Assembly: GCA_946404585.1 (NCBI GenBank) | Contig: CAMJEC010000004.1 | Span: forward strand, 1 to 35,133 | Source: an uncultured Caryophanales bacterium | GTDB taxonomy: Bacteria > Bacillota_I > Bacilli_A > RFN20 > CAG-826 | Reading direction: 5' to 3' | Length of the DNA: 35,133 bases | Shown here: positions 28,900-35,044 of the stretch, piece after piece | Numbering within the stretch: the stretch's first letter is position 1 | Layout: every line of letters starts with the position of its first letter | Notes under the pieces: model-generated | What the model was told of the DNA's origin: nothing | Database searches by the model: none | What the model saw: the letters and a program-made list of their open reading frames with translations, nothing else | Made by a program: the position numbers and the translations under genes

Positions 28900-29139
28900 C
28901 TATTTGTCTTCCTTCTTATCTTCAGTAGGTGCTTGATAAGGAGTGCCTATCTTTGAAGCAAAGTATTGATTATTTATATTAGGGGGTATCTCTGTACTAA
29001 ATGGTATCTTCCCATTTATAATGCACTGATAAAAGAATAGGCTAACTGCTTGGGACATATCCATACCCATGTTCTCAAATAACTTAGCGGCCTCTTCTTG
29101 AAGCTTAGAATCAATCATGAAATATATAGGTGTAATCAT
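28900..29139 (-). CDS. RelB/DinJ-family antitoxin without a visible toxin partner
   Basis: This 79-residue protein starts at the ATG at 29139, because the track's TTG at 29157 lies upstream of the -10 box. IDSKLQEEAAKLFENMGMDMSQAVSLFFYQ matches the N-terminal ribbon-helix-helix of RelB/DinJ antitoxins, with KIPF next, as in the family; the C-terminus is acidic and loose (APTEDKKEDK). On the minus strand TATTAT lies six bases before the ATG, with no Shine-Dalgarno. Downstream on this strand comes the 3' end of convergent gdhA, so no RelE/YafQ toxin gene follows, and none precedes it. It is probably a solitary antitoxin or a DNA-binding regulator. Confidence 0.8.
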   Translation of the reverse strand: MITPIYFMIDSKLQEEAAKLFENMGMDMSQAVSLFFYQCIINGKIPFSTEIPPNINNQYFASKIGTPYQAPTEDKKEDK

Positions 29140-29329
29140 ATCTACATAATAAAACAAAATAATAAGAATTTAATAATAAATCTATTTAAAGTTCATTTTA
29201 GTTTTACCTTCTAATATGCCGTTGTAAACTTTTCTTACAATCTTGGTAAACATATTTATATGGCAAATCTTTGGAATGCATTATAACAAAGTTATAAGTA
29301 CTATAGTAATAATAGTAAGTAAAGCAAAG

Positions 29330-29357
29330 TTGACACAAAATAGTTTGCTTTTATTAT
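29330..29357 (+). promoter_or_regulatory. Promoter of the HTH-GlmM operon with inverted repeats
   Basis: TTGACA and TATTAT are spaced by 16 bases. AGCAAA before and TTTGCT after the -35 form an inverted repeat (29322-29351), and TACTATAGTA is a palindrome just upstream. These may be operator sites. Confidence 0.6.
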
Positions 29358-29405
29358 AAAAAATACATTATGATAAGACAGCAACAACAAAAGGGAGGTC
29401 TCTTT

Positions 29406-31049
29406 ATGACCATTGGTGAAAAAATCGTTCACTTGAGGATAGTGAACAATATTTCTCAAGAAGAATTAGCGAAGATCTTAAAAGTCTCTAGACAGTCTAT
29501 GTCTAAATGGGAAAATGGTGAAAACCTTCCTCCATTAACAGCGATTAAAGATCTATGCGCTATCTTCAAAGTAACTGCTGATGAATTAATTGATGATAAC
29601 ATCGTTATTCATAAAGGTTACAAATTAGAATTACCAAATGAACACATTAAAACCAAATACTTTGGTACAGATGGTTTCAGAGGTGAGGCTAATGAATTAT
29701 TAAACTCAGATAGAGCGTATAAGATTGGTAGATTCCTTGGTTGGTTCTACTCTAATCCTAAATACAATATGCAAAAGCCAGGCTATAGAGCCAAGATCGT
29801 TATTGGTAAAGATACAAGACGTTCTTCTTATATGCTTGAATATGCTGTTGCAGCAGGTGCAGCATCATCTGGTGCGGACGTTGAACTTCTCCACGTTACA
29901 ACCACTCCATCTGTCTCTTATATCGTGAGACAAGACTGCTTCGACTGTGGTGTGATGATTACTGCTTCTCATAACCCATTCTATGATAATGGTATTAAAG
30001 TCATTAACGGTAATGGTGAAAAGTTAGAAGACGCAGTGGCGTATCTCGCTGAAGCTTATTTAGATGGTGATTTCAAAACCTTAGGTTTAGAAGAAGGTGA
30101 AACTGATTTACCATTCGCGAAACGTAGTGATATCGGCACAATTAATGACTACTCCAGTGGTAGAAATAGATATATTGGCTATCTCATCTCTTTAGCCAAA
30201 CACTCCATGAAGAAATTAAAAGTGGGCTTAGATGCCGCGAACGGTGCTTCTTGGATGATTGCTAGAAGTGTATTCGAAGCACTAGGGGCTCAAGTCTTTA
30301 TCATTAATAACCATCCAGATGGTTTAAATATTAACTTCAACGCTGGTAGTACACACATTGAAAACTTCTGTAAATACGTTAAAGACAATAAGTTAGATGT
30401 TGGCTTTGCCTTCGATGGTGACGCTGATAGATGTATCGCTGTTGACGAAAACGGTAAAGAAGTTGATGGTGATAAGATCATGTACTTATTAGCCTGTAAG
30501 TTACAAAACGAAGGCTCTTTAGATAAGAACACCGTCGTGGCCACAATTATGTCTAACAGTGGTCTTGCTAAAGCCTTAAAACAAATTGGTGTTAATTTAG
30601 AAAGAACCCAAGTTGGTGATAGGTTCGTCTTTGAAAGAATGGTCAATGAAGGCTATGTCTTAGGCGGTGAACAATCTGGTCATATCATCATTAAGAAATA
30701 CGCTACTACTGGTGATGGTGTTTTAACCGCTATCATGGTCGCAGAAGAAATGCTTGAAAGAAAAGAAGCATTATCTAAACTCGTGGCCCCAGTTAAAGTG
30801 TTACCACAAAAACTTAAAAACGTTAGAGTCACTGATAAAGCTGCAACTGTGGAAGATGAAGTCGTTAAAGCGAAATTTGACGAAGTTAATAAAGAAATCG
30901 GTGATAACGGTAGAGCCTTATTAAGACAATCTGGTACCGAACCAGTTGTTCGTATCATGGTGGAACTTGGTTCTCTTGCGGAATGTGATAAATATATCGA
31001 CGCGATTTATAACGTCATTAAGAAGAGAGGTTATGTCATCGATGAATAA
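29406..31049 (+). CDS. glmM: XRE-type HTH domain fused to phosphoglucosamine mutase
   Basis: The start is the ATG at 29406 with AAGGGAGG upstream. The protein has 547 residues, about 100 more than usual GlmM. Residues 3-60 are an XRE helix-turn-helix: GEKIVHLRIVNNISQEELAK, then VSRQSMSKWENGENLPPL, then VTADELI. From 84 the mutase begins KYFGTDGFRGEAN, with ITASHNPFYDNG holding the phosphoserine near 188, DGDADR as the metal loop, and RQSGTEPVVRIM as the phosphate-binding end. It should interconvert glucosamine-6-phosphate and glucosamine-1-phosphate for UDP-GlcNAc. Genes for a GlmU-like protein and NagB follow. The fusion is in frame with no break. It could regulate its own operon, which is inference. 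Confidence 0.9.
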   Translation: MTIGEKIVHLRIVNNISQEELAKILKVSRQSMSKWENGENLPPLTAIKDLCAIFKVTADELIDDNIVIHKGYKLELPNEHIKTKYFGTDGFRGEANELLNSDRAYKIGRFLGWFYSNPKYNMQKPGYRAKIVIGKDTRRSSYMLEYAVAAGAASSGADVELLHVTTTPSVSYIVRQDCFDCGVMITASHNPFYDNGIKVINGNGEKLEDAVAYLAEAYLDGDFKTLGLEEGETDLPFAKRSDIGTINDYSSGRNRYIGYLISLAKHSMKKLKVGLDAANGASWMIARSVFEALGAQVFIINNHPDGLNINFNAGSTHIENFCKYVKDNKLDVGFAFDGDADRCIAVDENGKEVDGDKIMYLLACKLQNEGSLDKNTVVATIMSNSGLAKALKQIGVNLERTQVGDRFVFERMVNEGYVLGGEQSGHIIIKKYATTGDGVLTAIMVAEEMLERKEALSKLVAPVKVLPQKLKNVRVTDKAATVEDEVVKAKFDEVNKEIGDNGRALLRQSGTEPVVRIMVELGSLAECDKYIDAIYNVIKKRGYVIDE

Positions 31050-31713
31050 GAAAGCTGTCTTAACTAAAGATCTCTTCGATTGTAGTAGTGATTTCCTTAG
31101 AGAATATTTTGATAACTCAACCTATCCTTGGGAATTACTTCCTCAAATTAAAGAAATTATTAAAAAAGTCTTAGAACAAGGCTTACCAGGTTATACCTTA
31201 CTTAAAGAAGGTGTCCTCGTAGGGGAAAATGTTAGCATTGCACCTACCGCGACAATCATTCCTCCAGCGATTATTGGTAATAATACAGAAATTAGACCAG
31301 GCGCTTATTTAAGAGGTAATGTCATTGTTGGTGATAACTGTGTTCTAGGTAATTCTTGTGAATTTAAAAACTGTATCCTCTTATATCACGTCCAAGTCCC
31401 ACATTATAGCTATGTTGGTGATAGTGTGCTTGGTAACTACGCTCATATGGGTGCGGGTAGTATCTGCTCTAACTTAAAGAGTGATGGTAAGAATGTCGTT
31501 ATACACGGTGATAAGGATTATGAAACAGGATTAAGAAAAATAGGCGCTATCTTAGGTGATTATGCTGATATTGGCTGCCAATCTGTTCTTAACCCAGGTA
31601 CAGTCATTGGTCAACACTCTCAAATCTATCCATTATCTATGGTCAGAGGTGTTGTCCCAGAAAATAGTATTTATAAAGCAAAAGACAATATTGTCGTAAA
31701 GGAGAAAAGATAA
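31042..31713 (+). CDS. Left-handed beta-helix transferase-like protein (GlmU C-terminal-like)
   Basis: The ATG at 31042 overlaps the glmM stop by eight bases; ATG at 31033 is a less likely start because AGAGAGG is only two bases before it. The 223-residue protein has hexapeptide repeats from about 70 to 190 (IAPTATIIPPAIIGNNTEIRPG and similar), then LGDYADIGCQSVLNPGTVIG. It resembles the acetyltransferase half of GlmU or a UDP-GlcNAc-pyrophosphorylase-related protein, and lacks the nucleotidyltransferase GxGTRM motif. With GlmM before it and NagB after it, an acyltransferase step on glucosamine-1-phosphate is the natural guess, but the substrate is not proven. Confidence 0.75.
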   Translation: MNKKAVLTKDLFDCSSDFLREYFDNSTYPWELLPQIKEIIKKVLEQGLPGYTLLKEGVLVGENVSIAPTATIIPPAIIGNNTEIRPGAYLRGNVIVGDNCVLGNSCEFKNCILLYHVQVPHYSYVGDSVLGNYAHMGAGSICSNLKSDGKNVVIHGDKDYETGLRKIGAILGDYADIGCQSVLNPGTVIGQHSQIYPLSMVRGVVPENSIYKAKDNIVVKEKR

Positions 31714-31715
31714 TT

Positions 31716-32438
31716 ATGAAAGTCGTCGTTGGCACAAACGAAGAAATCAGCAAATTAATCGCTGAAGAATTTATCAAACAAGTTCAAGCTAAACCAAATA
31801 GTGTTCTCGGTTTAGCAACAGGTACATCCCCAATTGAAGTGTACGCTAATATGATTAAGGCTAATAAAGAAGGTCGTGTATCATTTAAAGATGTCGCGAC
31901 ATTCAACCTTGATGAATACATCGGTTTAGAAGGAACACATGATCAATCATATCGTTACTTCATGAACAAATACTTATTCGATGGTTTAGATATCGATAAA
32001 GCGCGTACACACGTGCTTAAAGGTGTCGGTGATTATTTATCCTATGCTAATCAATACGACGCTCTAATCGCCTCTTTTGGTGGCATCGACCTTCAAATCT
32101 TAGGTATTGGTAGTGATGGTCATATCGCTTTCAATGAACCAGGTACTCCATTTGATTCCTTAACCCATGTCGCTGAATTAACAGAACAAACAATCAAAGA
32201 TAACTCAAGATTATTCAATGATATCTCTGAAGTTCCTACAAAAGCGGTCACCATGGGCTTAAAGAGCATTATGAATGCAAGAAAGATTGTTTTAATCGCT
32301 ACTGGTAAAAACAAAGCACAAGCTATCTATAACTTATTAAAAGGCCCAATGACTGAAGAAGTTCCATGCTCCATCCTTCAAAAACACCCAGATTGCACAA
32401 TCTATGTTGATGAAGATGCATATAGCTTAGTAAAGTAA
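31716..32438 (+). CDS. nagB: Glucosamine-6-phosphate deaminase
   Basis: This 240-residue protein has LGLATGTSPIEVY near 32-44, FNLDEYIGL near 69-77, and GIGSDGHIAFNEPG near 128-141 with the catalytic Asp and His. ATGKNKAQAI follows near 194. The length is that of short NagB enzymes, which lack the C-terminal allosteric part of E. coli NagB. It interconverts glucosamine-6-phosphate with fructose-6-phosphate and ammonium. AAGGAG before the ATG and a two-base gap put it in the glmM operon. Its stop codon is directly adjacent to that of the convergent NERD gene, with no terminator visible between them. Confidence 0.95.
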   Translation: MKVVVGTNEEISKLIAEEFIKQVQAKPNSVLGLATGTSPIEVYANMIKANKEGRVSFKDVATFNLDEYIGLEGTHDQSYRYFMNKYLFDGLDIDKARTHVLKGVGDYLSYANQYDALIASFGGIDLQILGIGSDGHIAFNEPGTPFDSLTHVAELTEQTIKDNSRLFNDISEVPTKAVTMGLKSIMNARKIVLIATGKNKAQAIYNLLKGPMTEEVPCSILQKHPDCTIYVDEDAYSLVK

Positions 32439-34366: not shown

Positions 34367-34426
34367 TAAAATAAATAATACTATAAACTTGCAAATGCAC
34401 TCTAAATATAGTAAAAAAAGGTGCAA

Positions 34427-35044
34427 ATGAAAGAAAATACTAACTATTCAAAGATTCAAAAAATATTTAAAAACAATGGTGGCTTTATCACCAGAGCAGA
34501 TATTGATGCCGCTGATATACCATCATGGTTTCTTTCTGACTTTGTAAAAAGAAATAACCTGATAAAAGTAGCGCCTGGTTTTTATGCCTCTAACGATTTC
34601 CTAGTTGATGATCTGTTTGTTCTTCAAAAGAGATTTTCAAAATACATCTTTTCAGGAATAAGCGCTCTATATCTACATGGTCTTACAGATAAGATTCCTA
34701 TTGAAATAGAAGTTACTGCACCTCAAAACTACAACCCATCTAGAAAGATAATTAGCAACCTCTCTATCCACAAAATATCTAGTGACGATAGATATTGTCT
34801 TGGAATAGAAGAAGTAAAAACAATGTTTGGTAACATCGTTAAAGTATATGATGCAGAGCGAACAATATGTGATGTTATAAAATATCGTGATAGATATGAT
34901 TCCGAAACCTTTGTTAAAGCGGTTAAGTCATATATTAAAAAAACAAATAATCAAATCAAACTCTTTAGGTATGCTAGAGAACTTGGAATAGAAAAGAAAG
35001 TTTATGAAGTAATGGAAGTCTTTACTGACGCTTTTAACTTATAA
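34427..35044 (+). CDS. AbiEi-family antitoxin-like protein, apparently solitary
   Basis: This 205-residue protein starts at ATG 34427, and AAAAAGGTG lies just before it. The N-terminal wing-helix reads FKNNGGFITRADIDAADIPSW, then LIKVAPGFYA. This is followed by FSGISALYLHGLTDK, VYDAERTICDVIKYR and FVKAVKSY. This pattern is the AbiEi antitoxin/transcriptional regulator of type IV systems. The cognate AbiEii nucleotidyltransferase toxin normally overlaps or follows immediately. Here a terminator lies 45 bases after the stop and the next coding signal runs the other way, so no toxin appears in this window. GTGC/GCAC repeats upstream (TGCAAATG twice) could be its own operator. Confidence 0.85.
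   Translation: MKENTNYSKIQKIFKNNGGFITRADIDAADIPSWFLSDFVKRNNLIKVAPGFYASNDFLVDDLFVLQKRFSKYIFSGISALYLHGLTDKIPIEIEVTAPQNYNPSRKIISNLSIHKISSDDRYCLGIEEVKTMFGNIVKVYDAERTICDVIKYRDRYDSETFVKAVKSYIKKTNNQIKLFRYARELGIEKKVYEVMEVFTDAFNL

Follow-up and report, generated by a model that had tools for sequence, protein, structure and literature searches.

The window, a stretch of 35,133 nucleotides from an uncultured Caryophanales bacterium, carries a single uninterrupted reading frame that encodes an XRE helix-turn-helix (HTH), a short linker and a complete phosphoglucosamine mutase (GlmM) in one polypeptide (Table 1). Translation is unlikely to begin at the upstream ATG (29370), because homologues align from the methionine at 29406, which follows a good ribosome-binding site; the residues encoded between the two are unconserved. 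The first-pass annotation had described a continuous frame leading from a strong ribosome-binding site through an XRE domain into a complete GlmM with all active-site motifs, and the open reading frame and profile matches confirm this description. Between a glutamate dehydrogenase gene and the fusion lies a small RelB-antitoxin-like gene (28900-29139, - strand), and a gene for an AbiEi-like antitoxin or regulator sits at the window edge (34421-35044, + strand).

Table 1. Features of the XRE-GlmM locus (coordinates are those of the window)
Feature	Position	Strand	Basis or detail
Second, upstream palindrome TATAACAAAGTTATA, possibly an auxiliary site	29282..29296	.	window genus only
Predicted operator GTAAAGCAAAGTTGAC, candidate HTH target	29319..29334	.	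motif in fusion promoters
Promoter region, two overlapping candidates	29330..29374	+	read from sequence, consensus scoring of homologous promoters
Promoter candidate 1	TTGACA 29330-29335, TATTAT 29352-29357	+	
Promoter candidate 2	TTGCTT 29345-29350, TATGAT 29369-29374	+	
Ribosome-binding site AAAGGGAGG	directly 5′ of ATG 29406		precedes fusion start
XRE-GlmM fusion gene	29406..31049	+	547 aa, continuous ORF
XRE helix-turn-helix domain, residues about 1-66	29406..29603	+	Pfam HTH_3, five-helix model
Linker, residues 67-82	29604..29651	+	conservation table, dN/dS, pLDDT
Phosphoglucosamine mutase (GlmM), complete, residues 83-547	29652..31046	+	TIGR01455; PDB matches
Left-handed beta-helix acetyltransferase, probably split-off GlmU acetyltransferase half	31042..31713	+	Hexapep, GlmU C-terminal models
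nagB, glucosamine-6-phosphate deaminase	31716..32438	+	TIGR00502 265 bits, cut-off 236.9

The protein matched TIGR01455, the GlmM equivalog model, with 489 bits against a cut-off of 447.55 (residues 86-539, model positions 1-441 of 442), and Pfam recognized PGM_PMM domains I-IV. The catalytic serine loop (TASHNP), the metal-binding motif (DGDADR) and the sugar/phosphate loops (GGEQSGH and RQSGTEP) are intact in the window protein, and 42 aligned homologues show no or almost no variation at the key residues of these motifs. An AlphaFold2 model of XRE-GlmM (mean pLDDT 85.9) was confident over the enzyme part, and the best PDB matches, both by sequence and by model fold, were GlmM of B. subtilis, B. 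anthracis and S. aureus. Because of its sequence and because it is the sole GlmM-level match in its own genome (an assembly about 72% complete), we infer that the fusion has mutase activity on glucosamine phosphate.

The N-terminus matched Pfam HTH_3 (41.2 bits, cut-off 23) and HTH_19, and the AlphaFold2 model placed the five HTH helices at residues 3-13, 18-24, 29-36, 44-54 and 58-62. The recognition helix, RQSMSKWE (residues 29-36), is nearly invariant, with R29, Q30, S33, W35 and E36 identical across 59 fusions. Comparison of the window genus and its nearest kin gave similar dN/dS values for the HTH (0.07) and GlmM (0.08) and a higher one for the linker (0.28). The linker varies in length and sequence between homologues, and residues 71-80 have a mean pLDDT of 53. 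Purifying selection on the HTH is thus as strong as that on the enzyme, and by every test available the fusion is selected to work.

The assembly that contains the window is fragmented (99 contigs, about 1 Mb, about 72% complete), and a sequencing error or mis-join in it might have united two genes; alternatively, an internal start could leave the cell with plain GlmM. Both possibilities had been raised when the fusion was first noted, along with a search for it in related genomes. That search revealed about 60 other loci, from independent assemblies, with the same open XRE-GlmM fusion, which rules out a sequencing error or mis-join. Since no ATG, GTG or TTG lies in frame between codon 41 and FGTDG, in the GlmM core, of the window gene, an internal start giving a separate plain GlmM is unsupported. 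Together with purifying selection across the HTH, these observations make it exceedingly improbable that the cell makes plain GlmM by any of these routes.

The other fusion loci belong to the window genus, to other rumen and gut Bacilli and to Oscillospiraceae-type Clostridia. The fusion is present, whole or as contig-edge fragments, in 15 of the 16 other genus-level genomes and also in two further genera of the window's family (G021 and G030), and a scan of representative genomes recovered full fusions in metagenome-assembled genomes of other Bacilli and of Clostridia/Oscillospiraceae. Among 295 genomes sampled from the order to which one clostridial carrier belongs, about 30 hold the fusion and others have plain GlmM. 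In one clostridial genome (G324), a plain GlmM is present in addition to the fusion.

To place the fusion in the history of the enzyme, we used a tree built only from the GlmM portion of 60 fusions and from 42 plain proteins. By parsimony, the fusion/plain label changes three times on this tree, which would most simply correspond to one gain and two losses (in L097 and in L086 with L088); fine branching is partly weak, such that the two losses can be re-read as extra gains. The bacillar fusions nest inside clostridial diversity, and other members of the window's family have only distantly related plain GlmM (~40-45% identity). Thus, the fusion probably arose in Clostridia and then moved into these Bacilli.

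The gene for the hexapeptide acetyltransferase overlaps the fusion stop codon, and its counterpart adjoins the fusion in most fusion loci. Third in the operon is nagB, in the window genus as in many other fusion loci. The order glmM-hexapeptide-nagB is kept in many fusion loci, and some clostridial loci are without a nearby hexapeptide gene or nagB. In 13 of 16 genus genomes (including L133-L136) the GlmU match stops at model position 327 of 452, so the operon's hexapeptide gene is probably the acetyltransferase half of a split GlmU; no GlmU match was found in the window's own genome, whose assembly is about 72% complete. We considered nagB as a replacement for GlmS and dropped this idea because glmS is present; nagB is therefore best read as a competing deaminase. 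The operon looks like two consecutive steps to GlcNAc-1-phosphate combined with a drain, nagB, at the branch point.

In three relatives (G017, G018 and G039), plain glmM adjoins the c-di-AMP cyclase gene cdaA, a linkage that is the classic Firmicutes operon (PMC6368335). GlmM from the cdaA/dacA-ybbR-glmM operon is the same enzyme and also acts in regulation by inhibiting the c-di-AMP cyclase (PMC6368335), but is without the HTH of XRE-GlmM. In the window genome, cdaA lies on another contig (L157, contig C36) and is followed by a NUDIX-like gene rather than glmM. Judged by gene order, the fusion is evidently a replacement for the native cdaA-linked glmM in the window's lineage.

Comparing promoters side by side as hand-oriented sequences, we read a palindrome upstream of the fusions. 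The clostridial form, GCAAC-N5-GTTGC, occurs in 35 of 59 fusion promoters and 0 of 43 plain glmM promoters, with 0.02 expected from shuffles, and without exception (36/36 sites) the base inside the left arm is Y and that inside the right arm is R. The window genus has a related palindrome, GTAAA-N6-TTKAC. The common motif, GYAAM-N5/6-KTTRC, is exact in 50 of 59 distinct fusion promoters, against 0.8 expected, and all 59 match it with at most one mismatch. Of 42 plain glmM promoters, 1 has an exact match, about as many as chance would give (0.3). These counts come from the same promoters in which the motif was discovered, and the fusion loci are mutually related, amounting to about three independent contrasts. 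Since upstream neighbour genes vary between fusion loci, the palindrome travels with the fusion. We found no operator palindrome upstream of glmM in either HTH-loss lineage. A different palindrome, CGCATACTATTATGCG, is shared by the HTH-loss loci L086 and L088, directly 5′ of the ribosome-binding site of plain glmM. The upstream palindrome of the window genus (TATAAC-N3-GTTATA or ATAAC-N3-GTTAT) was present in 8 genus loci (0.02-0.08 expected) and 0 of 43 plain loci.

Folds of the XRE type occur widely and in some cases bind non-DNA partners, so the HTH could be a passenger, or a dimerisation or RNA-binding appendage, with the palindromes belonging to another regulator. However, its recognition-helix residues are invariant, selection on it equals that on the enzyme, and where the HTH is missing, in the two loss lineages and at plain loci, the palindrome is missing too. 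We consider a passenger role very unlikely.

We also scanned whole genomes. The 16 whole fusion genomes yielded 21 occurrences of the strict motif GCAACYNNNRGTTGC. The fusion promoter accounted for 17 of them, and the remaining 4 are at the chance level given by a reversed-pattern control (5). In 14 plain-GlmM genomes there were 9 occurrences, none beside glmM. An extended form, RGTAAANNNAANTTNACA, had 11 matches in 16 window-genus genomes, all 11 at fusion promoters; the fusions match by construction, as the pattern was derived from them, but the absence of other matches does not follow from this. In its strict forms, the palindrome is thus found essentially once per genome, at the fusion promoter. 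Since these scans used strict forms only and weaker half-sites are also present at fusion promoters, the HTH might regulate a wider wall-precursor regulon in which its own-promoter site is merely the strongest. We think this unlikely, as strict sites outside the fusion promoter were at chance level and no second recurrent site was seen.

The palindrome therefore accompanies the HTH: loci without the domain, including those that lost it, lack the site, and across whole genomes it is essentially confined to the fusion promoter. This pattern strongly supports the proposal of the first-pass annotation that the DNA-binding domain controls the glmM-hexapeptide-nagB operon, and the DNA it had singled out (29300-29360) was the right region, as the predicted operator (29319-29334) falls within it. 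From the same sequence comparisons, we infer that the HTH binds the palindrome and so controls transcription.

With promoters assigned by consensus boxes and transcription start sites that are guesses, site positions fell within narrow classes. In Clostridia, about 20 loci have a site centred at -65 and 11 loci a second one 22 bp away, at -43; in Bacilli, sites were centred at -52 (11 loci), with an additional site at about +11 in L041-L045. The window operator either overlaps the TTGACA -35 box or lies at about -54, depending on the promoter candidate. Lambda cI bound at OR1/OR2 activates PRM, and the clostridial -65/-43 pair resembles the arrangement of such an activator. The sites at about +11 in some Bacilli look repressive. 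In two loci, L020 and L048, nagB and the fusion are transcribed in opposite directions from a shared 150 bp region. L048 has one GTAAA-N6-TTTAC between the nagB and fusion promoters, with its right arm on a candidate nagB -35, and L020 has a one-base variant of this sequence between the divergent genes; a site over the divergent nagB -35 in these two loci also looks repressive. The predicted site positions would allow activation or repression. Control by a riboswitch or ribozyme was dropped as a candidate since the fusion leader had no Rfam match.

Our data favor a model, which we consider likely, in which XRE-GlmM is a bifunctional trigger enzyme whose HTH binds the palindrome at its own promoter and sets operon transcription. 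It is very probably a single-target autoregulator of the operon of glmM, the split-GlmU acetyltransferase and nagB. In such a scheme, the GlmM half, as the cell's only GlmM, would make glucosamine-1-phosphate, and the enzyme would bring the XRE half into a dimer. The paired XRE half would bind the palindrome at the promoter, setting transcription of glmM, of the acetyltransferase for the next step and of nagB, which drains the same substrate. The substrate or phospho-state of GlmM may change DNA binding. Flux sensing, the other half of the first-pass proposal, with sugar phosphates altering DNA binding, is plausible because of the trigger-enzyme precedent.

A more detailed version, which we put forward tentatively, is that GlmM is a metabolite sensor in which the phospho-serine or bound glucosamine phosphate signals to the paired HTHs. 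One operator would then switch wall-precursor synthesis together with nagB, from a lambda-cI-like activator position in Clostridia and with added repressor positions in Bacilli. Another possibility is that XRE-GlmM autoregulates only as a dosage homeostat, with binding reporting the amount of GlmM rather than flux or sugar phosphates. A single-target site suffices for a dosage circuit, and the variable, low-confidence linker between the domains makes ligand-driven communication non-obvious. However, in PutA and similar known enzymes that bind DNA, substrate acts as the switch (PMC8249747). The presence of nagB in the operon or divergent from the fusion also fits a metabolite-responsive switch. 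We view control by dosage alone as possible, if somewhat doubtful.

Several known systems resemble trigger enzyme control by XRE-GlmM in part. NagC, a dedicated ROK-family regulator of nag and glmUS genes with several targets, is a sugar-binding HTH protein that ties amino-sugar breakdown (nagB) to UDP-GlcNAc synthesis. As proposed for XRE-GlmM, one HTH protein joins nagB-type breakdown and UDP-GlcNAc synthesis, but NagC has a ROK sugar-kinase fold, acts at several targets and is not homologous to GlmM; Pfam detected no ROK domain in the fusion protein. The DNA-binding domain of PutA is a ribbon-helix-helix. Unlike XRE-GlmM, PutA is a membrane-associated proline dehydrogenase of catabolic redox metabolism, and its fold, pathway and operator are different. 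Like XRE-GlmM, it is a complete enzyme with its own DNA-binding domain and a single operator region beside its own gene, and it is classed as a single-target trigger enzyme (PMC8249747).

PutA, NadR and BirA are all trigger enzymes, i.e., enzymes that also regulate (PMC8249747). XRE-GlmM has the structure of one, as an intact enzyme and a DNA-binding domain are joined in one polypeptide with both under selection, and its predicted operator lies where the target of one would, at the promoter of its own pathway. NadR and BirA of E. coli, like XRE-GlmM, act in biosynthesis and carry an HTH at the N-terminus, and, as proposed for the fusion, they regulate genes of the pathway they serve. They are different enzymes, however, and reported to be multi-target (PMC8249747), whereas XRE-GlmM has essentially a single site in each genome. 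BzdR likewise links an XRE HTH to an enzyme-derived, shikimate-kinase-like domain; however, this domain is a C-terminal effector sensor that has lost enzyme activity in its authors' model (PMC3602430), while GlmM is intact. Pfam detected no shikimate-kinase-like C-terminal domain in the fusion protein. In the open-licence literature searched, we found no description of XRE-GlmM or of GlmM as a trigger enzyme, and the joining of GlmM to a DNA-binding domain, together with a matching site at its own promoter, appears to be an undescribed combination.

The supply of UDP-GlcNAc is a cell-wall control point, and its known controls (the glmS ribozyme, NagC and GlmR) act elsewhere. If our model is true, a GlmM that reads its own promoter would be sensor, switch and enzyme in one protein, at an essential step and in two bacterial classes. 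With a single dedicated predicted operator, a clear origin and two natural losses, XRE-GlmM would be an unusually clean case for the evolution of an enzyme into a regulator. The replacement of a native, cdaA-linked glmM by a self-regulated one would also bear on how c-di-AMP signalling and wall synthesis are coupled.
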